From Halalkalibacter urbisdiaboli (GTDB lineage Bacteria > Bacillota > Bacilli > Bacillales > Bacillaceae_D): DNA of 64,000 nucleotides. Of this stretch, positions 26,274 through 51,446 are shown one piece after another. Each line of letters begins with the position of its first letter. The stretch's first letter is position 1. A program made the translations under genes and the position numbers. Location of the stretch: contig NZ_MVJM01000001.1 of assembly GCF_002156385.1 (NCBI RefSeq), positions 329,573 to 393,572 on the forward strand, given 5' to 3'. The notes under the pieces were generated by a model, which did no database searches, was not told where the DNA came from, and saw only the letters and a program-made list of their open reading frames with translations.

Positions 26274-26358
26274 AAAATAGTAGGAAGGTCATACTAGTAG
26301 ACTAGACAACTATCTACAATGACTGCTTCCCCTTTTCCTCGAAGGTTTCACATATCGA

Positions 26359-26516
26359 TCTAGGCAGGTCTCCTGACTCATGCATCAACAGAACTTTCCC
26401 CTTCCCATCAATAGACAGTGGTTTATTGAAAGCTCCTAGCAATTACAGTGGCGGGACCGTGTTGGACTTACACCAACTTCCCTATTAACATCCCTGTGCT
26501 CCAAGGATGACCTAGA
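26359..26516 (-). ncRNA. Cobalamin (AdoCbl) riboswitch
   Basis: On the minus strand the P1 stem TCTAGG (26516-26511) pairs with CCTAGA (26364-26359). Between them are the conserved GGGAAGTTGGTGTAAGTCC and CGGTCCCGCCACTGTAA segments and the B12 box TCAGGAGACCTGCC near the 3' end (about 26377-26364). All core elements of the class are present. It controls the downstream operon from btuF to pduO by repressing it when adenosylcobalamin is abundant. Confidence 0.96.
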
Positions 26517-26620
26517 TTTTTTCTATGAATATTTTGACGTATGTTTATTATACATGAATTTTCATTATTCGAAAGACATTCACTCCATTTTTTCACGTAA
26601 TTGTTTCTTATGAAACAAGA

Positions 26621-36230: not shown

Positions 36231-36947
36231 ATGGCAGTTATGGATTTCATCAGTATTCTAGCTAGAATAATCACGCTTTTCCCACTATTATTAGTAGTAA
36301 CCCTTTTTATGGGAAGAAGATCAATAGGTGAGGTTCCTATCTTTGATTTTCTCGTTATTGTTACACTTGCTTCGATAGTAGGAGCAGATATAGCAGATCC
36401 TAATGTAAATAATATTTATACTGCATTCACCGTTATGGGAATTGGGATTTTTCAAAAATTCTTTTCGAAACTCGTCATTAAACATCGTACATTCGGAAAG
36501 TTAGTGACCTTTGGGCCAACTATCGTTGTTAAGGACGGTAAGCTGCTAGTAAAAAACGCAAAAGCCATTCGTTATTCCATAGATAACATTCTGCAAATGC
36601 TTAGACAAAATAATGTTTTTGATATTAACGATGTACAATTAGCAATCATTGAGGCAAACGGAACATTAAGCGTTCAGAAAAAACCTGAAAAGTCATCTCC
36701 GACAAATGAGGACCTTAACGTTGTAAAACAAAGCCAGTCCATTTCATATCCGATTATTATTGAAGGGATTATCCAAGAGGAGATTCTAAATGATTTTGGG
36801 TTAACGGAGGAAACCCTTCGTCAACGTCTAGAAAACGAAGGGTATATCCGCCTAAAAGATGTATTTCTTTGTACGATAAATGAGAAGCAAGAGTTACAGT
36901 TCAATTTTTCTTATTTAAAAAACCCATTGAAAGAAATCCGGCATTAG
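36231..36947 (+). CDS. DUF421 (YetF-like) membrane protein
   Basis: This is a YetF-family protein of 238 residues: three N-terminal membrane helices (about 8-85; RIITLFPLLLVVTLFMGRRS, IFDFLVIVTLASIVGADIAD) followed by two cytosolic repeats of the YetF/YDFR type (INDVQLAIIEANGTLSVQKK, YPIIIEGIIQEEIL, IRLKDVFLCTI). Start ATG 36231 is favoured because GAAGGAG lies upstream and the membrane helix begins there; the long open frame from 36024 lacks support and overlaps dacB. The gene is divergent from dacB and convergent with the 2Duf-type gene, whose stop codon is one base away. In spores, DUF421 proteins are linked to inner-membrane properties and heat resistance. Confidence 0.85.
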   Translation: MAVMDFISILARIITLFPLLLVVTLFMGRRSIGEVPIFDFLVIVTLASIVGADIADPNVNNIYTAFTVMGIGIFQKFFSKLVIKHRTFGKLVTFGPTIVVKDGKLLVKNAKAIRYSIDNILQMLRQNNVFDINDVQLAIIEANGTLSVQKKPEKSSPTNEDLNVVKQSQSISYPIIIEGIIQEEILNDFGLTEETLRQRLENEGYIRLKDVFLCTINEKQELQFNFSYLKNPLKEIRH

Positions 36948-36948
36948 A

Positions 36949-37809
36949 TTACGTATCTAAATAAGGTTGAACAGATTCAAGCACCTCTTGCATTTGTTCT
37001 GCACACCATTTGTAACTTTGCTTTGCTTGTTCATTTTCTGTATCAAGAACAAATTGCTCTAAATCAGCCTGTACCTTTTTTAAGTTTGCTTTTAATTGTG
37101 GCAACTGAGTCGGTTGTGGGACTTGAATCATGTCATCAAATAAATCGACGGTAAGTTGCCCATCATCATCTACTTGAGCTAAGTAAACATTTTCAACGGC
37201 AATGTCGTTTTTAGCAAGCTCCGTTTCAAGCCAATTGCGACTTAACCCTCTAGTCGCTAACGGTTCATCTAATATTTCCCCATCCATCATGACCGTTTCT
37301 GGCTCCTTAATAGGTGCAACTGTTTTCCCTAATAGTTTTGCCGTAATCGGTTGCTTGTCCTTCTTCAATAAAACATTAAGTTCACCGTTACCTTCCAGTA
37401 CAGCAAATTCTACATCGGCAATTTGAAACGCGCCCTTCGTTCGAAGTTTTCTAAGCAATTCATCACCAGAAACCTTTTGTTTCTTTAAGTTGTCTTCTAA
37501 TATTTTACCATCCTTCAGTAAAGGAATTCCTTTACCAAACACGATTGACCTGAATGCATTATTTTTTATGCTAACCCAACCGATTAGATAAAAGGCTGTA
37601 ATCCAAACAGCAAAAGCCACTAGTAATAATCCGATTGGAATACTCAGCTGAATTGAGCCTACTGCCACGATAACCGCTAGACCTGTCATCAACCCATACT
37701 CCAGATATGAGGTTTCCCCAATTGGCTTTCTAACTAAGCCTCGTGCAAAAAAACCTAATAAAACAATACCAATCAAACTACGTAATGCTATCTCAAGCCA
37801 ACCAGGCAT
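36949..37809 (-). CDS. 2Duf-type protein: DUF421 fused to DUF1657
   Basis: This 286-residue protein has three N-terminal membrane helices (about 8-80), a cytosolic DUF421/YetF part (about 85-220; VEFAVLEGNGELNVLLKKDKQ, VENVYLAQVDDDG) and, fused at its end (about 230-285), a helical DUF1657-like domain (LPQLKANLKKVQADLEQFVLD, SYKWCAEQMQEVLESVQPYL). This layout equals that of 2Duf, a spore inner-membrane protein encoded in the spoVA2mob operon and reported to increase heat and chemical resistance of spores. It is the last gene of the operon, 17 bp after a DUF1657 gene. No terminator is visible before the convergent DUF421 gene. Start ATG 37809 with GGAGGGAG. Confidence 0.88.
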   Translation of the reverse strand: MPGWLEIALRSLIGIVLLGFFARGLVRKPIGETSYLEYGLMTGLAVIVAVGSIQLSIPIGLLLVAFAVWITAFYLIGWVSIKNNAFRSIVFGKGIPLLKDGKILEDNLKKQKVSGDELLRKLRTKGAFQIADVEFAVLEGNGELNVLLKKDKQPITAKLLGKTVAPIKEPETVMMDGEILDEPLATRGLSRNWLETELAKNDIAVENVYLAQVDDDGQLTVDLFDDMIQVPQPTQLPQLKANLKKVQADLEQFVLDTENEQAKQSYKWCAEQMQEVLESVQPYLDT

Positions 37810-37826
37810 GGGAAGCTCCCTCCTTT

Positions 37827-38033
37827 CTAATTACCTTTATATTGCGGCTCTTCACTTTCTATAAACGCAACACGCTTTTCCATTTCTCCAATTACTGTTC
37901 TTGTTTTTAAGGAGGCTTGGTGGTAACAATTTTGTGTTTCATGCTCTTTGGCTTGAAGAGCAAGTGTTGATAAAGTCGCCTCAATTCCCTTTAAAGTTAC
38001 TAGTGCTCCTTTTACTTGTGAAGCAACGGTCAT
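37827..38033 (-). CDS. DUF1657 small protein (second copy)
   Basis: This 68-residue helical protein starts MTVASQVKGALVTLKG and ends EEPQYKGN. It shares its ends (MTV..KVK-like and EEPQYK) with the DUF1657 protein at 40539 and resembles the C-terminal domain of the neighbouring 2Duf-type gene. There is no signal peptide or membrane helix. It stands between spoVAE and the 2Duf gene in the same position as in spoVA2mob operons. AAGGAGG lies seven bases upstream of ATG 38033. The function is unknown; the domain probably forms a helical hairpin that oligomerises. Confidence 0.85.
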   Translation of the reverse strand: MTVASQVKGALVTLKGIEATLSTLALQAKEHETQNCYHQASLKTRTVIGEMEKRVAFIESEEPQYKGN

Positions 38034-38045
38034 TGTTTTTCCTCC

Positions 38046-38396
38046 TTATCCTTTTGGTTTAAAAACGAGTGAAGCTAAAAAGCCGAAAATGATCGCGGCC
38101 GAAATCCCTGCACTTGTCACTTCAAAAATCCCAGTGACTACACCTATTAATCCATTCTGTTCAGCTTCTGCCATCGCTCCGTGCACAAGTGAGTTTCCAA
38201 AGCTTGTAATTGGCACGGTAGCACCCGCACCAGCAAAATCAATAAGTGGTTCATATAAACCTAAGCCATCCAGTATCGCTCCACCAACGACAAGTGTACT
38301 TAATGTATGTGCTGGTGTTAACTTCCAAACATCCATCATTAATTGACCAATCACACAAAAAAGTCCACCAACAATAAACGCCCATAAAAACGTCAC
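38046..38396 (-). CDS. spoVAE: SpoVAE-type (SpoVAEb) spore membrane protein
   Basis: This small membrane protein of 116 residues belongs to the SpoVAC/SpoVAE family. It has about three to four helices ([57 protein letters not shown]...[15 protein letters not shown]). In the SpoVA complex it forms, with SpoVAC and SpoVAD, the channel for dipicolinic acid uptake in sporulation and release in germination. The start is GTG 38396, which overlaps the SpoVAD stop as GTGA. It is followed after 12 bp by DUF1657. Confidence 0.92.
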
Positions 38397-39409
38397 ACCA
38401 CTTCACCTCCAGCTTCAATTGAAACCGCATGAGCAATACAGGGAATTGTTTCTTGTTGCTGCTGAGTAAGCGGTGATAAAAGCGCTCCTGTAGCAACAAC
38501 TAACATCCGTTTGATTTCACCGCGTTTCATCCGATTTAATAGATGACCATATGCCACAACAGCTGAGCATCCAGCACCACTTCCACCAGCAAGCACCGGT
38601 TGATCCTCACGATAAATCATCACTCCACAATCGTGAAACTGGTCTCTTGAAAGCGAAATCCCTTCGTTATCAAGAATTTCTCGAGCGATTGGTAAACCGA
38701 CTTTTCCTAAATCACCTGTAACGACTAAGTCATAATAATCACTCGGAAGATCTAAATCGCGAAAATGGGCTTGGATCGTATCAGCAGCTGCAGGCGCCAT
38801 TGCACCACCCATATTAAAGGGATCACTCATTCCCATATCAACAACTTTACCAATTGTTGCGGACGTGATGACAGGACCAGATCCTTCTTGTGATAATAGA
38901 GCAGCCCCTGCTCCAGTGACTGTCCATTGAGCCGTAGGTGGCTTTTGTCCACCATATTCTGTCGGATACCGAAATTGCTTTTCTGTCGCTGTGTTATGAC
39001 TTGAAGCTGCGGCAAGGACGTGTCTAGCTCCACGTGCATTAATTAAAAATGCACCTAATGCAAGGCCTTCCATCGATGTTGAGCACGCACCAAACATCCC
39101 AAGATAAGGAATCGCTAATGTTCGTGATGCGAAGCTAGACGGTGTTATTTGGTTGATTAAATCTCCTGCAAGCATAAATTGTATATCACCATTTTGCAGC
39201 TTAGCTTTTTCGATTGCTCGTGTTGCCGACTCTTCAATCAAGACTTTTTGTGCTTTTTCATAGGAGTCTTGCTTTAACCATAAATCTTCATGAAGAATAT
39301 CGAAATCATTAGCAAGTAAACCGTTTGCTTCAAAGGGGCCGCCCACAGTACCAGTCGATGTAATAACTGGTTTATTATCAAATACCCAAGATTGATGTCC
39401 TTGTAGCAT
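38393..39409 (-). CDS. spoVAD: SpoVAD, dipicolinic acid binding protein
   Basis: This thiolase/ketoacyl-synthase-fold protein binds Ca-dipicolinate in the SpoVA complex. It has 338 residues from ATG 39409, the usual SpoVAD length; the ATG at 39424 in front has no ribosome site, while GGGGGG ACTGTA precedes 39409. Typical motifs: [18 protein letters not shown] with the Cys in the thiolase position, [44 protein letters not shown] and [17 protein letters not shown]. The start overlaps the SpoVAC stop (TAATG) and the end overlaps SpoVAE (GTGA), so the three genes are translationally coupled. Confidence 0.95.
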
Positions 39410-39888
39410 TACAGTCCCCCCCATTGAATTAATATCGTTTTTATTAGTGCAATAATAAAAGCGGCAACGGTTCCAAAGACAATAACTGAACCTGCTAATT
39501 TAAAAATGTTACCGCCAACACCAAGTACATAGCCTTCAGTACGATGTTCAATTGCAGCTGAGCTAACTGCATTTGCAAACCCCGTAACAGGAACAGCAGT
39601 CCCCCCACCTGCAAATTGTGCAAACCGATCATATACTCCAAAACCAGTTAATAAAACCGAGATAAAAATTAAGGTTGCCACTGTTGGGTCTCCCGCCGAT
39701 CTTTCAGTAAAGTCAAAAAAAGTATAATAAAACATATGCAACGCCTGTCCAAATGTACAAATGAGCCCACCGATAATGAATGCGCGAATACAATTTTGCA
39801 GAACTGGGCGCTTCATTTCGTATTTATCTTCGATTTTGTGATAAGACTGCTGAGTCGGTGTCAAATTTTTCTTCTTATTTGATGACAT
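39409..39888 (-). CDS. spoVAC: SpoVAC mechanosensitive DPA channel
   Basis: This spore inner-membrane protein of 159 residues is shown in B. subtilis to behave as a mechanosensitive channel for dipicolinate release. It has a hydrophilic N-terminus (residues 1-30; NLTPTQQSYHKI) and about four to five helices: RAFIIGGLICTFGQALHMFY, TLIFISVLLTGFGVYDRFAQFAGGGTAVPVTGFANAV and VIVFGTVAAFIIALI. The GxGxxVPVTGF part is shared with SpoVAE ([11 protein letters not shown]). It is the third gene of the spoVA-type operon, 14 bp after the YhcN-like lipoprotein. Start ATG 39888 with AGGAGGTGACACC. Confidence 0.94.
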   Translation of the reverse strand: MSSNKKKNLTPTQQSYHKIEDKYEMKRPVLQNCIRAFIIGGLICTFGQALHMFYYTFFDFTERSAGDPTVATLIFISVLLTGFGVYDRFAQFAGGGTAVPVTGFANAVSSAAIEHRTEGYVLGVGGNIFKLAGSVIVFGTVAAFIIALIKTILIQWGGL

Positions 39889-39901
39889 GGTGTCACCTCC
39901 T

Positions 39902-40339
39902 TTACCCTTTCATGTCATCTTCTAATTTTTTTACTTTTTCCTTAAGCTGCTTTTCTGTCAATTTATTTTCCTTTAATTGTTTCTCAAGCTTTTCCAGCTC
40001 CATATAAATTTTACGGTCAGTTGACACATGAACATTAGCATCAGGGTATCGTTTTTTTATATGATCGTGACCTTCTTTCCGAATACCTTTTAAATGAAAT
40101 CTGTCAAATTGCTTTACACGAGGTGCTATGTAGATATCATCATCAAGCTCTACACCCTTTACTTCTAGAACCTCGTCCATTGATAATACGATTTGTTTTG
40201 CTTCATCTGCCTTGTTTTGAGAAACCTCAGGCTTTTCACCTAACATTAAAGGACGAACCTCTTCACTTTGTCCCGTTACACCTTGACAACCCGCTAGGAG
40301 AGTTAACAGACATAAAAACCTAATTAACATTTTTGACAT
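39902..40339 (-). CDS. YhcN/YlaJ-family sporulation lipoprotein
   Basis: This 145-residue lipoprotein has a signal peptide with lipobox LLAGC (about residue 18). The central part (IVLSMDEVLEVKGVELDDDIYIAPRVKQFDRF, KKRYPDANVHVSTDRKIYMELEKLEKQL) is the YhcN/YlaJ domain, a BON-like fold. A lysine-rich coiled-coil tail (about 115-145) ends the protein. YhcN is a spore inner-membrane lipoprotein in B. subtilis. Here it is the first gene of the coupled set yhcN-spoVAC-spoVAD-spoVAE, matching its position in spoVA2mob. A terminator separates it from the upstream DUF1657 gene. Start ATG 40339 or the ATG three codons later. Confidence 0.87.
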   Translation of the reverse strand: MSKMLIRFLCLLTLLAGCQGVTGQSEEVRPLMLGEKPEVSQNKADEAKQIVLSMDEVLEVKGVELDDDIYIAPRVKQFDRFHLKGIRKEGHDHIKKRYPDANVHVSTDRKIYMELEKLEKQLKENKLTEKQLKEKVKKLEDDMKG

Positions 40340-40487
40340 TTATTGTCACCCACTTTTTGATTTATTACCATTAGATAGAAAATTACTTAGCAAATAAAAA
40401 CACTCAATTCTAGATTGAAAATATTAAGAAGAAAATATGTAGTAAATTTTTGTAAAAAAGGTTGGGGATTACTGAGGTTTTCACTAT

Positions 40488-40523
40488 TTTTTAAAAACCT
40501 TACGATGAAGATTCATCGTAAGG
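40488..40523 (-). terminator. Terminator after the first DUF1657 gene
   Basis: CCTTACGATGA and TCATCGTAAGG form a perfect 11-bp stem with a 4-nt loop (40498-40523), followed on the minus strand by TTTTTAAAAAATAG. It splits the DUF1657 gene from the yhcN-spoVA genes, either stopping transcription or reducing it. Confidence 0.82.
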
Positions 40524-40538
40524 CGGAATAGTCACAGA

Positions 40539-40745
40539 CTAAGATTGCTTATATTGAGGTTCTTCTTGCTCAATTTGTTGCAAGCGTGGCTCTAATTGAT
40601 CAACAATTGCCTGTGCTTGTTGAGCTGTTTGTTGAAATAATTGCTTTGCTTGCTGATTGTCTGTTTCTAGGCCAAATGTTTCAAGGCTTGCTTGCGCACT
40701 TTTTAACCCAGCAATTGTTTGTTTTACTTTGTTTACTACTGTCAT
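40539..40745 (-). CDS. DUF1657 small protein (first copy)
   Basis: This 68-residue helical, glutamine-rich protein (MTVVNKVKQTIAGLKSAQASL ... EEPQYKQS) is a paralogue of the protein at 37827. It has no signal or membrane segment. A leading DUF1657 gene is the first member of spoVA2mob operons. Here it is followed by its own terminator. The ribosome site is TAGGGGGA before ATG 40745. The 140-bp region up to the divergent gene at 40886 should hold the sporulation promoter, but I cannot point to clear sigma-G boxes. Confidence 0.85.
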   Translation of the reverse strand: MTVVNKVKQTIAGLKSAQASLETFGLETDNQQAKQLFQQTAQQAQAIVDQLEPRLQQIEQEEPQYKQS

Positions 40746-40885
40746 TGCGAAATCCCCCTAAGTTGTTGTAAGAGCAAGCTCTTCACCAATATGATGGCTT
40801 AAAAACCCGAATTTATTTATCAAATTTCTGTAAAAGTTAATTCCACTTTTTAGTCATGTTATACTAAATCTAAGGGAGGTGTTGT

Positions 40886-41416
40886 ATGTTTATTGTTTTG
40901 AGTATTTTAGTTTGTCTGACTTTTCTTGGCTTACTATCTATGCTTATACTCTTGAAGCGTCAACAGTACACTCTCCAGCTTCTACATGCCCTAAAACAAG
41001 AAATAGAAACGTTAAAAATGAATCCGTCCTCATTATCAATCGAGCATGAAGCACTATTAAACGAATCACGAAGCCATCTTTTACTATTGGCATATAGAGT
41101 GCGTGATGCGGTTTATAAGCAACAATCGACTATTCATGCCCGACTCATCGAAGAAGCACCTACGTCCCATGGGTATTCAGACAAGGAATTAGCTAAATTA
41201 TTTCCCCCTCAAGCCGTCTTGGCAACCCAACAATTTTGGCACCTTTATAACGAGTATCTCTCGCACCATTGGCTTGATTCAAAAAAACATGTAAAAACCA
41301 TTTTTAGTGGCAGGAAGGAAGACCACACATCAGAATTAGGACAAATGCATATTGCTTCTAATCGACTTATTACAAAGTTGGATCATCTATTGGAAAAGAT
41401 GAAGTCAGCTCCTTAA
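40886..41416 (+). CDS. Membrane-anchored hypothetical protein, coiled coil
   Basis: I do not recognise this family. It is a 176-residue protein with one N-terminal membrane helix (about residues 2-23; FIVLSILVCLTFLGLLSMLIL), then a helical region (about 25-70) likely to form a coiled coil, and a soluble helical C-terminal part rich in His/Leu. It is divergent from the DUF1657 gene that starts the spoVA-type operon and is followed by a strong terminator. Start ATG 40886 with AAGGGAGGTG seven bases upstream. Because the flanking genes on both sides concern the spore membrane, a sporulation role is plausible, but nothing in the protein shows it. Confidence 0.65.
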   Translation: MFIVLSILVCLTFLGLLSMLILLKRQQYTLQLLHALKQEIETLKMNPSSLSIEHEALLNESRSHLLLLAYRVRDAVYKQQSTIHARLIEEAPTSHGYSDKELAKLFPPQAVLATQQFWHLYNEYLSHHWLDSKKHVKTIFSGRKEDHTSELGQMHIASNRLITKLDHLLEKMKSAP

Positions 41417-41440
41417 AGAGGGCTGACTTTTTCATTTTCT
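41402..41440 (+). terminator. Terminator of the 176-residue hypothetical gene
   Basis: AAGTCAGC and GCTGACTT form a stem around TCCTTAAAGAGG, followed by TTTCATTTT. It overlaps the last codons of the gene. Confidence 0.8.
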
Positions 41441-41517
41441 TAACAAATTCCACTCATAATTACCTACCTTTTTGCCAAAAATAAAAAACTATCGAGACTA
41501 CAAAAGGGGCATTCACT

Positions 41518-42204
41518 GTGAATACTAACTTTTTAGCATTAACGACAGAGCTTTTTGTAGGATTTGTAGCACTCCTTTTCCTTACGAAGATGCTCGGAAA
41601 AAATCAAATTACACAACTAACTCCCTTTGATTTCATCTCTGCCATTGTACTCGGGGAACTTGTAGGGAATGCTATATATGATAAAGATATCGGACTTCCT
41701 TATATCCTTTATGCAGTATTTTTGTGGGGAACATTAATCTATTCCGTTCAAAAATTAACGCAAAAGTTTAGAGGCATTAGACCTCTTTTAGAAGGACAGC
41801 CAGCTCTCGTTATTGCAAAAGGGAAAATTCAGTATGAAATTTTAAAGAAGAATAAACTCGATTTAAATCAATTACAACATCTATTACGCGAAAAGGATAT
41901 TTTTTCCATCCGTGAAGTTGAATATGGGATTTTAGAAACAAACGGATCAGTTAGTGTCTTAAAAAAGAAACTATATGATACACCAAATAACCAAGATTTA
42001 AATATCCCGCCTAGCAATGTTGCCCTTCCGATTATGCTAATTCTAGATGGCGAGGTAATAAAAGAGGGCTTACAGTTTCTTAACAAAAACGAGGATTGGT
42101 TAAAAGAAGAATTAATAAAAAGAGGGATTCCTGGTATATCTGCTGTCCTTTATGCGGAGTGGTTAGAGGGACAAGAATTAGAAATTCAACCATACTCAAG
42201 TTAA
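41518..42204 (+). CDS. DUF421 (YetF-like) membrane protein
   Basis: This 228-residue protein has three N-terminal membrane helices (about 9-80; ELFVGFVALLFLTKMLGKNQITQLTPFDFISAIVLGELVGNAIYD, ILYAVFLWGTLIY) and the cytosolic YetF repeats (REVEYGILETNGSVSVLKKK; LPIMLILDGEVIKEGL; ISAVLYAEW). It is closer in its first helices to canonical YetF (KMLGKNQI...PFDFI) than the 36231 copy. The start is GTG 41518 with AAAGGGG eight bases before. It is followed after 13 bp by the phosphodiesterase lipoprotein gene, so the two form an operon. It is the third DUF421 domain within 6 kb, counting the 2Duf fusion. Confidence 0.87.
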   Translation: MNTNFLALTTELFVGFVALLFLTKMLGKNQITQLTPFDFISAIVLGELVGNAIYDKDIGLPYILYAVFLWGTLIYSVQKLTQKFRGIRPLLEGQPALVIAKGKIQYEILKKNKLDLNQLQHLLREKDIFSIREVEYGILETNGSVSVLKKKLYDTPNNQDLNIPPSNVALPIMLILDGEVIKEGLQFLNKNEDWLKEELIKRGIPGISAVLYAEWLEGQELEIQPYSS

Positions 42205-42217
42205 GGGGTGTTCTCTT

Positions 42218-43795
42218 ATGAAAAAATGGACCTTACTATTTTGTTTCTGTATCATCTTAATCGGTTGTCAAGATACACAGCCAGAAGGGGCAAGCTTACA
42301 AGGAGAGAATGCGTCCAAATTGCGAGAAGACCAAAAGAAAGTGATTGCTATTATGGTCGATTCAATGACATATGACCTTCTTGAAATGGCTGATAAAGAA
42401 GGAAAAATCCCCGCCTTATCTTATTTAATGGAACGGGGTCAAGTTCATAAAGAGTTTATTGCCCCATTTCCAACCTTATCTGTTGTTATCGAAAGTACTT
42501 TGATAACAGGTGCAGAGCCTGATGTACATAATGTACCAGGATTAGTTTGGTATAACCAGGACGAAAACCGCTTAATAAATTATGGTTCCACAACGATGGG
42601 AATGTGGAAACTCGGGTTTAAACAAGTTCTGTATGATAGTTTATACCATTTAAATAACACTCATTTAAGCAAAAATACAGAAACGATTTTCGAAAGCTTA
42701 CAGCGTCATGGTTTTTCAACCGGTTCTATCAACACTCTTGTTTATCGCGGTCAAACCGAACACGAGCTCACGTTACCCGTGCCATTTAATAAAATCCTTT
42801 CAGAACAAATTCCAATAAAAACACATGGACCTGATCTCCTTTCATTCGGAAAAGTCATTCAACCGAAAGTCGTTCAAGAAAACGAATCAAAGCATGATGC
42901 GATCTACCAAAAATTTGGCTTAAATGACCAACACTCAACTGAAGTCGTAAAAAAATTAATAGAAAAACAACAGCAACCGGATTTTACATTTATATTTTTT
43001 CCAAATTTTGATAAAGAAGCTCATTATCATGGACCTGATAATGTTGAAGATTTTGCTGAGGCAGATTATTATTTACAGGAAATATTAAATAGTTATGACA
43101 GCTGGGATAAAGCTTTAGAGGAGAATATTTTTATCGTTTTTGGTGATCATGGTCAAGATGCCATTGTACATGACAAAGGGAAAGCAGCAATTGAATTAGA
43201 GCCTTTACTAGAGCCTTATTCCATTGCTCCGCTTCTAGATGACCCCGCAAGCGCTGACTTTATTGTCGCTAATAACCATCGGATGGTCTATCTATATCGA
43301 GGTTTAACAGAAATAGCTTGGAAGGATATTCAATCAAGCATATTACAAGATGAACGAGTTGACCATGTTGCCTATTTAGAAGGTGAAGAACTGGTCATTC
43401 ATCATAACGACGAAATATTACGTGTGAAAAAAGACGGGGGTTGGAAAGATGAATTTGATCAAAGTTGGGAACTATCAGGAGACCCTCATCTCGTAGACGT
43501 AACCATTAATCACGATGAGCAAACGATAAGTTATGGGGATTATCCAGACGCATTTAATCAGCTTTATCATGCACTGCATAGCCATTCAGATTCCATGATT
43601 ATAACAGCAAAACCTGGTTATGTTATGAAAACGGAAGCTTCACCTGTCCATCATGACGGTGGTGAACATGGTGGATTCCATAAAAATGATACAGAAGCAG
43701 CGCTCATAATAGCAGGAACTGATAAGGAGCCAAATGACAAAAGAATGACTGAATTTAAGCCTTATATCCTTTCTTTGTTCGGAATTGAAGACTAG
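42218..43795 (+). CDS. Alkaline-phosphatase-superfamily phosphodiesterase lipoprotein
   Basis: This 525-residue lipoprotein has a signal peptide ending in lipobox LIGC (Cys17). It has the type I phosphodiesterase/nucleotide pyrophosphatase domain (about 40-520). Metal ligands and nucleophile are visible: Asp48 in AIMVDSMTYD, Thr in PFPTLSVVIEST, Asp and His in FPNFDKEAHYHGPD, Asp-His in VFGDHGQD and His in GGEHGGFH. It would act outside the membrane on a phosphodiester substrate (nucleotide, phosphonate or lipid head group), unknown here. It is co-transcribed with the DUF421 gene. AAGGGG precedes ATG 42218. A strong terminator follows, shared with sodF. Confidence 0.84.
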   Translation: MKKWTLLFCFCIILIGCQDTQPEGASLQGENASKLREDQKKVIAIMVDSMTYDLLEMADKEGKIPALSYLMERGQVHKEFIAPFPTLSVVIESTLITGAEPDVHNVPGLVWYNQDENRLINYGSTTMGMWKLGFKQVLYDSLYHLNNTHLSKNTETIFESLQRHGFSTGSINTLVYRGQTEHELTLPVPFNKILSEQIPIKTHGPDLLSFGKVIQPKVVQENESKHDAIYQKFGLNDQHSTEVVKKLIEKQQQPDFTFIFFPNFDKEAHYHGPDNVEDFAEADYYLQEILNSYDSWDKALEENIFIVFGDHGQDAIVHDKGKAAIELEPLLEPYSIAPLLDDPASADFIVANNHRMVYLYRGLTEIAWKDIQSSILQDERVDHVAYLEGEELVIHHNDEILRVKKDGGWKDEFDQSWELSGDPHLVDVTINHDEQTISYGDYPDAFNQLYHALHSHSDSMIITAKPGYVMKTEASPVHHDGGEHGGFHKNDTEAALIIAGTDKEPNDKRMTEFKPYILSLFGIED

Positions 43796-43856: not shown

Positions 43857-44750
43857 TTAATAAGGTTTCCACAGCAACTGACGAGCTTTCATATAGCGTT
43901 CATTCACTGCGGGCCAGTTCACTACATTCCACCAGTTGGAAATATAAGGAGTGCGTTCATTTTTATATTGTAAATAATAAGCATGCTCCCAAACATCTAA
44001 GACAAGCAATGGTACAATATCCTGTTGAGAAAGGTTTTGGTGTTTTTCGGCTTGAAGGATTTCGAGACGGTGGGAGCGTGGTGACCAAACTAAAAGGGCC
44101 CAACCTACACCTTCTACATTCTCAGCTGCTTTCGAAAAATGCTCCTTCATTTTGCGGAAGCTACCAAAATCTCGCTTGATTTGTGCAGCTAATTCACCAC
44201 TCGGCTCTCCGCCACCCCTTGGACTCATAATATTCCAAAAAATTGTGTGTAAATAATGCCCAGCACCGTTAAACGCCGCCTCTCGCTCCCAATGCTTTAT
44301 TAGTTCATAGTCACCAGATTTTCGCGCCTGTTCCATCTTTTTCTCAGCTTTATTTAAACCGTCAACATAGCTCTGGTGATGTTTTTGGTGATGGAGCTTC
44401 ATAATTTCTTTAGAAATATAAGGCTCTAATGCATCATATGGATAGGGAAGCGGTGGGAGCTTATGACCGCCGATTGGAACACGGCTTAATTGCTGTCCAT
44501 TCGCTTGACGATTGTCAAAAATGGATTCGAGCGTGCACCATTCGGTATAAACTTTAGATGCGAACTGGTCTAAATCTATATCTCGATATTGCTGAGGTTT
44601 TTCCACTTCATTAAGTAACTCTATAAGTGCCGTAACAAACGGCTCAGTCCGTTCATAACCAACTTGTTTTTCAATCGTAGCTCCATGTTCACTCCACATC
44701 TCCTTTAAACTCAAAGCCCACTGCTCAATAGTCTCTTCATGTTGATTCAT
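43857..44750 (-). CDS. sodF: Iron/manganese superoxide dismutase with N-terminal extension (SodF-like)
   Basis: This enzyme dismutates superoxide to O2 and hydrogen peroxide. It has 297 residues: an N-terminal helical extension of about 95 residues without known function, then the Fe/Mn SOD fold. Metal ligands: His in LHHQKHHQSYV, His in FNGAGHYLHTIFW, and Asp/His in LDVWEHAYYLQY. The layout with the long N-terminus equals B. subtilis SodF (about 280 residues), not the short SodA. The extension has no signal peptide. Start ATG 44750 with AAAGGAGGAAGA. It is monocistronic, with its own terminator on the far side. Confidence 0.9.
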   Translation of the reverse strand: MNQHEETIEQWALSLKEMWSEHGATIEKQVGYERTEPFVTALIELLNEVEKPQQYRDIDLDQFASKVYTEWCTLESIFDNRQANGQQLSRVPIGGHKLPPLPYPYDALEPYISKEIMKLHHQKHHQSYVDGLNKAEKKMEQARKSGDYELIKHWEREAAFNGAGHYLHTIFWNIMSPRGGGEPSGELAAQIKRDFGSFRKMKEHFSKAAENVEGVGWALLVWSPRSHRLEILQAEKHQNLSQQDIVPLLVLDVWEHAYYLQYKNERTPYISNWWNVVNWPAVNERYMKARQLLWKPY

Positions 44751-51161: not shown

Positions 51162-51295
51162 GGTTTCTAAATAAGAGTATCACGAAACAAGCCGTTCCCT
51201 TAAGACAAACGGATTGCGTGGTAGCATCTGAAAAAGGGCATACTTACCCTATAGTTTTGTAGCATTTTTCGAAAAAAATGCCTCACATGCTCTTC

Positions 51296-51446
51296 TCTCC
51301 TTCTCCCATCCAGACTTTCACTGTCGGTCCCGGACTTTCACCAGGTCCACCGCTTTTGACGAATCAAAATCGGGTCACGGACTAAGAAGCCATTTATGCT
51401 TCATCACCGCCGGTCGGGATTTTCACCCGGCCCCGAAGGATACTAT
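51296..51446 (-). ncRNA. FMN riboswitch (RFN element)
   Basis: On the minus strand the conserved RFN segments occur in order: CTTCGGGGCCGGGTGAAAATC, CCGACCGGCGGTGATG, AGTCCGTGACCCG, TGGACCTGGTGAAAGTCCGG and GACCGACAGTGAAAGTCTGGATGGGAGAAGG. All are diagnostic of the class. A separate terminator is located before ribD. The remaining gap up to 51643 contains only the mscS terminator. Confidence 0.97.

Follow-up and report, generated by a model that had tools for sequence, protein, structure and literature searches.

A conserved chromosomal spoVA2 locus of Halalkalibacter urbisdiaboli adjoined by a yetF-type gene and a predicted ENPP-fold lipoprotein

Among the spoVA2 loci described so far, spoVA2mob is carried by a Tn1546-like element in Bacillus subtilis (PMC5133452), while the Bacillus cereus group has a chromosomal spoVA2 (5A2) locus (PMC13059800, PMC10126465) with the same gene order in B. 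cereus, B. anthracis and B. thuringiensis (PMC10126465). A chromosomal locus is also reported for Parageobacillus (PMC13068155), and the 2Duf protein of the mobile operon has its nearest counterpart in the B. cereus group (PMC10126465). SpoVA2 is required for the import of dipicolinic acid (DPA), a molecule that protects the spore against heat, and NJ2, its fourth subunit, is predicted to cap the channel from outside (PMC13059800). The locus described here lies in a 64,000-nucleotide stretch of the Halalkalibacter urbisdiaboli chromosome (contig NZ_MVJM01000001.1, positions 329,573 to 393,572), called the window, to which all coordinates refer unless a contig is named. It consists of a minus-strand spoVA2 operon and, diverging from it, a yetF-type gene followed by that of a predicted ENPP-fold phosphodiesterase lipoprotein. 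We give about even chances to the reading that this is a conserved chromosomal spore locus whose lipoprotein likely works with the channel on the outer side of the inner membrane of the forespore. A chromosomal spoVA2 locus in this gene order is already published and is the ordinary part of the finding; the new element is the likely catalytic lipoprotein, which synteny, operon place and gene fusion appear to link to the SpoVA2 channel.

The operon runs on the minus strand from 40745 to 36949, and all seven of its genes are open frames. In order of transcription they encode a first DUF1657 protein of 68 residues (40539-40745; PF07870), the YhcN/YlaJ-type lipoprotein NJ2 of 145 residues (39902-40339; PF09580, 27.3 bits against a cut-off of 26.3), SpoVAC of 159 residues (39409-39888; TIGR02838, 200.2 bits, over cut-off), SpoVAD of 343 residues (38393-39424; PF07451, E 2.5e-158, with PRK12404 and TIGR02845 over cut-off), SpoVAE of the Eb type, 116 residues (38046-38396; TIGR02839, 175.7 bits, over cut-off), a second DUF1657 protein of 68 residues (37827-38033; PF07870) and, as the final gene, 2Duf, a DUF421 protein of 286 residues with a C-terminal DUF1657 domain (36949-37809; PF04239 and PF07870). 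The assignments come from Pfam and NCBIfam profile scans of the window proteins. Judged by gene content, this is a complete chromosomal spoVA2 locus, and SpoVAC, SpoVAD and SpoVAE with NJ2 are predicted to form an inner-membrane DPA channel with its cap. The initial annotation had proposed an intact operon with the gene content of spoVA2mob at a core chromosomal place between dacB and scpBA, and both the content and the place hold. The operon is bordered by spmB, spmA and dacB on one side and by genes for an Fe/Mn superoxide dismutase, scpB and scpA on the other; the names spmA, spmB and rsuA follow that annotation and conservation in relatives, not a profile scan. It is not carried on a Tn1546-like transposon, the trait that marks spoVA2mob: core genes stand on both sides and the place is the same in relatives. 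As the annotation had also stated, no transposase or resolvase was seen among the genes listed for 30-50 kb, by reading and with no dedicated transposon search. In the host genome (4.56 Mb in 12 contigs) a single further SpoVAD, of the spoVA1 type, lies some 28 kb from the locus (C1:396710-397693) with SpoVAC and SpoVAE alongside; this is the second operon that the annotation proposed to look for.

Sixty genomes were searched, the window's own included, and a SpoVA2-type SpoVAD was found in 50 of them, in 53 copies. The locus was compared in 35 relatives of the same family; one of these loci (G023) ends at a contig edge, and scpB may fall outside the fetched stretches. SpoVAC, SpoVAD, SpoVAE and NJ2 are present in all 35, and so is a YetF-like gene, divergent from the operon and upstream of it, 1.05-2.35 kb from SpoVAD. 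The other genes are kept less regularly: the DUF421 gene between dacB and 2Duf (DUF421a) occurs at 25 of the 35 loci, 2Duf at 20, the gene at 40886 (X176) at 15 and the phosphodiesterase gene at 13, so that none of the four plus-strand neighbours is absent beside the operon in all relatives. The place is conserved in the family; loci that can be named include those of Bacillus solitudinis, Halalkalibacter oceani and Anaerobacillus and Shouchella species. The locus may be an ancestral version of the mobile operon, as the annotation suggested, but the mobile 2Duf is most like the B. cereus one (PMC10126465). Within the fetched stretches dacB is found at 34 of 35 loci, the superoxide dismutase gene at 34 and scpB at 24. 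Such stability of the whole region, together with the absence of the phosphodiesterase and X176 from many family loci, would suit an ordinary core spoVA2 locus whose plus-strand neighbours merely hitch-hike by inheritance in a stable dacB-scpB stretch and share no function with it. We consider this explanation rather unlikely, since the YetF-like gene is kept in every relative while other intervening genes are lost, the enzyme stands within or next to spoVA2 in other families and branches too, and the enzyme family is fused to an NJ2-type domain, as described below.

The operon itself varies at its DUF1657-containing genes. Across 75 spoVA2 loci, a set from which near-identical loci and six others had been dropped, 2Duf occurs with a separate DUF1657 gene in 43, alone in 9 and neither is found in 23, while DUF1657 alone occurs in none (kinship uncorrected, some contigs short); 2Duf and DUF1657 go together across spoVA2 loci. 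In the family, the enzyme is present at 13 and X176 at 15 of the 20 loci with 2Duf, against 0 of 15 each without it, counts that are likewise uncorrected for kinship. These 15 relatives have neither 2Duf nor DUF1657 at the locus, yet keep SpoVAC, SpoVAD, SpoVAE, NJ2 and the YetF-like gene, and thereby offer natural comparisons within the family. At two loci (L076 in G030, L085 in G028) the gap that separates the operon from DUF421a holds additional 2Duf-like or DUF421 and DUF1657 copies, as though the module duplicated there. One genome has a second spoVA2 copy (L078, G024:C1:1258000-1276000) without the dacB-scpB surroundings, and its 2Duf match is in two parts.

The YetF-like gene (D421b, 41518-42204, plus strand) encodes a protein of 228 residues with YetF_N and DUF421 domains (PF20730 and PF04239, over cut-off). 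Against the solved domain of B. subtilis YetF (3C6F) it scores 150 bits, with 70 of 141 residues identical (50%), compared with 67 bits (66.7) for DUF421a and 55 for 2Duf. In B. subtilis, spores without YetF and YrbG show DPA release and spontaneous germination, and more SpoVA hastens this in a yrbG strain (PMC12548441); the yetF homologues of that species are reported to stand apart from spoVA (PMC10126465). A yetF-type gene adjoining spoVA2 fits a working link, and on comparative evidence the YetF-like gene appears to belong with the operon. DUF421a (36231-36947, plus strand; 238 residues; PF04239, E 2.6e-37) probably belongs with it too. The genome has 11 DUF421 matches, three of them at this locus. 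Two loci of Anaerobacillus (L048, L054) have both the enzyme and X176, with no YetF-like gene found between them.

The phosphodiesterase gene (42218-43795, plus strand) starts 13 bp after D421b, and the spacing is tight in relatives too. Its product, of 525 residues, has a lipobox and belongs to the type I phosphodiesterase/NPP family. The predicted fold is of the ENPP/NPP type, with ENPP1, ENPP3, ENPP5, ENPP6, ENPP7 and Xac NPP among the structural matches, at identities of only 13-19% in the listed rows. The nucleophile and the six metal ligand positions are filled (D48, T86, D265, H269, D310, H311 and H484), these positions being assigned from the residue spacing in Xac NPP. The protein is likely to be a catalytic lipoprotein.

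Beyond the family, the enzyme was compared in position with SpoVAD among the matches listed, using 138 homologue rows, from which the window, its family orthologue in G003 and fragments were left out, and 178 SpoVAD rows, from which very short fragments were left out except a SpoVAD remnant in G374. For eight of the 138 homologues a SpoVAD is no more than 6 kb away, where about 0.8 would be expected; seven remain without the G374 remnant. Three of the eight are in Brevibacillus genomes and one stands beside the remnant. In the four named Brevibacillus loci the enzyme gene follows SpoVAE immediately on the same strand, in two frames in one of them (L061), and in G213 (L133) a stretch of about 8 kb carries SpoVAC and SpoVAD, DUF1657, DUF421, diacylglycerol (DAG) kinase and enzyme genes on a single strand. 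In an enzyme tree with 98 members, built by a quick method, the window's group has 20 members at full support, 16 of them beside spoVA2, and stands apart from the Brevibacillus set and the other SpoVAD neighbours. Since these are separate branches, the link between enzyme and spoVA2 seems to have arisen or lasted on several of them. On this comparative evidence the phosphodiesterase, like the YetF-like gene, appears to belong with the spoVA2 operon.

The strongest sign that enzyme and cap meet is the fusion of the enzyme to a cap-type domain. A C-terminal NJ2-type domain is present in all eight database homologues longer than 600 residues (among 120 listed) and at two genome loci (L138, L140), which may overlap with those eight. 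The ten fusion domains are 35-43% identical to the window's NJ2 over 99-110 residues and score 19-26 bits with the Pfam YhcN/YlaJ profile, below its cut-off of 26.3. They were also compared with NJ2 and the three other YhcN/YlaJ matches of the window's genome. All eight database domains prefer NJ2, at 68-88 bits against 32 or less for the genome's other YhcN/YlaJ proteins, and in a tree the fusion domains group with NJ2, apart from the other three, with support of 99/97 and with long-branch warnings. NJ2 was not found in the spoVA stretch of either fusion genome (15 kb in G077, 5 kb in G142), nor did these genomes contain another match to the NJ2 part of the fusion; a third genome of their family encodes the enzyme unfused, with a YhcN-like frame apart from it. 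Neither in Brevibacillus nor in the two fusion genomes was NJ2 found next to the operon, which would also suit a purely structural role, in which the enzyme domain is an additional SpoVA2 cap that substitutes for NJ2 where it is absent. We regard this as very unlikely, since NJ2 is present at all 13 family loci that have the enzyme, and 74 of 74 homologues retain five of the seven ligand positions, for which a mere cap would have no need. The spoVA stretches of the two fusion genomes also have insertions between SpoVAD and SpoVAE: an Exo_endo_phos-like gene on the opposite strand in G142 (L253; identified by eye, with no profile scan) and two plus-strand frames in G077 (L135).

The substrate is the least certain step, and lipid head groups are likely, as judged from fold and neighbours. 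Regions were obtained for 80 of 113 chosen homologue places (the eight near SpoVAD and 72 of 105 others) and for 40 of 54 listed controls. Any of six lipid-type families is found in 26 of the 80 enzyme regions against 2 of the 40 controls; glycosyltransferases of the monogalactosyldiacylglycerol (MGDG) synthase type account for 7 of 80 against 0 of 40 (p 0.053). The commonest tested neighbour family is Exo_endo_phos (21 of 80 against 0 of 40, p 7e-5). DUF421-type genes lie near the enzyme in a minority of the 80 regions, and the idea that the enzyme always stands beside DUF421 was rejected. The enzyme could instead work with NJ2 and SpoVA2 on nucleotides or on glycerophosphate polymers of the teichoic-acid type. 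DAG kinase and MGDG synthase-type neighbours would suit lipoteichoic-acid turnover too, and the best structural matches include the nucleotide-acting ENPP1, ENPP3 and Xac NPP. The matches also include ENPP6 and ENPP7, however, whose substrates are choline lipids, and the Exo_endo_phos neighbours are not specific to nucleotides; we judge this alternative unlikely.

The following sequence of events can be proposed. Late in sporulation DPA would pass through the C-D-E channel beneath the NJ2 cap, while YetF and 2Duf would stiffen the membrane and help to hold the channel closed. The lipid anchor would hold the phosphodiesterase beside NJ2, a contact made covalent in the fusions, and near the channel the enzyme might trim the phosphodiester head groups of lipids in the inner membrane, or else glycerophosphate polymers. 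Such trimming would reduce permeability and steady the DPA-filled core. The link of enzyme to channel is suggested by the enzyme gene being in the same operon, or fused to a cap-type domain, in some related bacteria. In its fullest form the proposal is that the ENPP-type enzyme is a hitherto unseen catalytic partner of SpoVA2, docked through NJ2 on the outside of the channel, by a covalent bond in the fusion lineages, and editing lipid head groups together with YetF and 2Duf, so that membrane sealing and DPA loading would be one enzymatic programme; this is possible but doubtful. A literature search found no paper joining SpoVA with an alkaline-phosphatase-family spore lipoprotein, none linking YhcN with a phosphodiesterase in spores, none that names DUF1657 together with a phosphodiesterase, and none on the sigma-G consensus; from the literature on spore inner membrane, phosphodiesterase and phospholipid, PMC6568419 concerns other genes in its available part. 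The tightness of the spore inner membrane and the closure of the SpoVA channel are open questions, for which the enzyme provides a concrete, testable suspect.

Forespore-type promoter sites were counted on related loci, with near-identical ones dropped, against single-base shuffles. A candidate site for the operon lies at 40796-40823 on the minus strand, about 50-72 bases 5′ of the first gene, and 21 of 39 loci have the post hoc pattern that it represents ahead of the operon (mean of shuffles 6.6, maximum 13). The strict form of the pattern is found in 11 of 36 loci against 0.41 in shuffles, and the window fits the relaxed form only. Before the YetF-like gene a post hoc site occurs in 9 of 16 loci with X176 (shuffle 0.36, maximum 3) and in 2 of 18 without it (0.28), and before DUF421a in 5 of 27 (0.49). 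After the first DUF1657 gene, a hairpin with a 12-bp stem followed by a U run (40476-40530, minus strand; z -5.85 against shuffles) is a possible terminator or attenuator.

Several observations weigh against a spore locus in which the lipoprotein serves the channel. The promoter patterns were defined only after the sequences had been inspected, a scan with the plain sigma-G consensus did no better than shuffles in either direction, and no forespore-type match precedes the YetF-like gene of the window. The enzyme is optional, being present in 13 of 35 relatives, and its gene is broken into two frames in G034 and split into two pieces in G024. Outside the family, 130 of the 138 homologues are not near spoVA, and in the genus of the Brevibacillus cases the enzyme is near SpoVAD in only 3 of 21 genomes among the matches listed. 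As to the substrate, nucleotide enzymes are among the structural matches, and of the neighbour families only Exo_endo_phos is significant singly; MGDG synthase, DAG kinase, GDSL, VTT, GDPD, YkoP and metallophosphatase are not. The lipid-type neighbours come mostly from a paralogous branch and from related genomes, so the lipid-neighbour result is only a lead.

The initial annotation had suggested that all the extra plus-strand genes belong to one spore-membrane system. This is supported for the flanking DUF421 genes and the phosphodiesterase but not for X176 (40886-41416, plus strand), a protein with one N-terminal membrane helix and a helical domain. The window protein has no Pfam family and no fold match in the PDB at E 0.001, and a protein-database search returned only X176 itself at that tool's sensitivity. 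A forespore-type site precedes it in 1 of 18 loci (shuffle mean 0.32), its end has a strong hairpin (z -4.29), and the gene is decayed in G028 and split in two in G015. The rare site, the terminal hairpin and the decay in two relatives speak against a member of the spore system, and X176 is probably outside the spoVA2 system.

Related genes are also found away from the locus. In the window's own genome, a second 2Duf-like gene (L001, G000:C1:1069182-1069586), 35% identical over 278 of 286 residues, has a DUF1657 gene upstream and is remote from any SpoVAD, and a DUF421 gene stands immediately 3′ of a DUF1657 gene (L008, G000:C6:678971-679366) whose product is 54% identical to the first DUF1657 protein of the operon. 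In G411 (L150), far from spoVA, a phosphodiesterase homologue has a DUF1657 gene immediately upstream of it; metallophosphatase, YkoP-like and MGDG synthase-type genes are close by. The superoxide dismutase next to the locus (43857-44750, minus strand) has about 95 additional N-terminal residues. Ordinary cobalamin and FMN riboswitches are found at 26346-26530 and 51294-51444 on the minus strand.

Compared with the described systems, the locus is most like the chromosomal spoVA2 (5A2) locus of the B. cereus group (PMC13059800, PMC10126465), with which it shares the seven genes and their order, a second operon of the spoVA1 type and a chromosomal place. The present locus is head to head with yetF-type and ENPP-type genes, the comparison with the B. 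cereus group being one of the operon itself. The B. subtilis spoVA2mob (PMC5133452) has the same seven gene types in the same order, whereas the present locus is at a core chromosomal place, where reading the listed neighbours revealed no transposase or resolvase. D421b shares the YetF_N and DUF421 domains, and 50% identity to the solved domain of YetF, with the spore inner-membrane family of YetF, YdfS and YrbG (PMC10126465, PMC12548441); unlike what is reported for the B. subtilis genes of that family, it adjoins spoVA2. Location in the spore inner membrane and an effect on resistance are published for the B. subtilis proteins only. The window enzyme resembles the ENPP/NPP phosphodiesterases ENPP5, ENPP6, ENPP7 and Xac NPP, and is set apart from them by its lipobox, by the NJ2-type fusions of its family and by its linkage to a spore channel.

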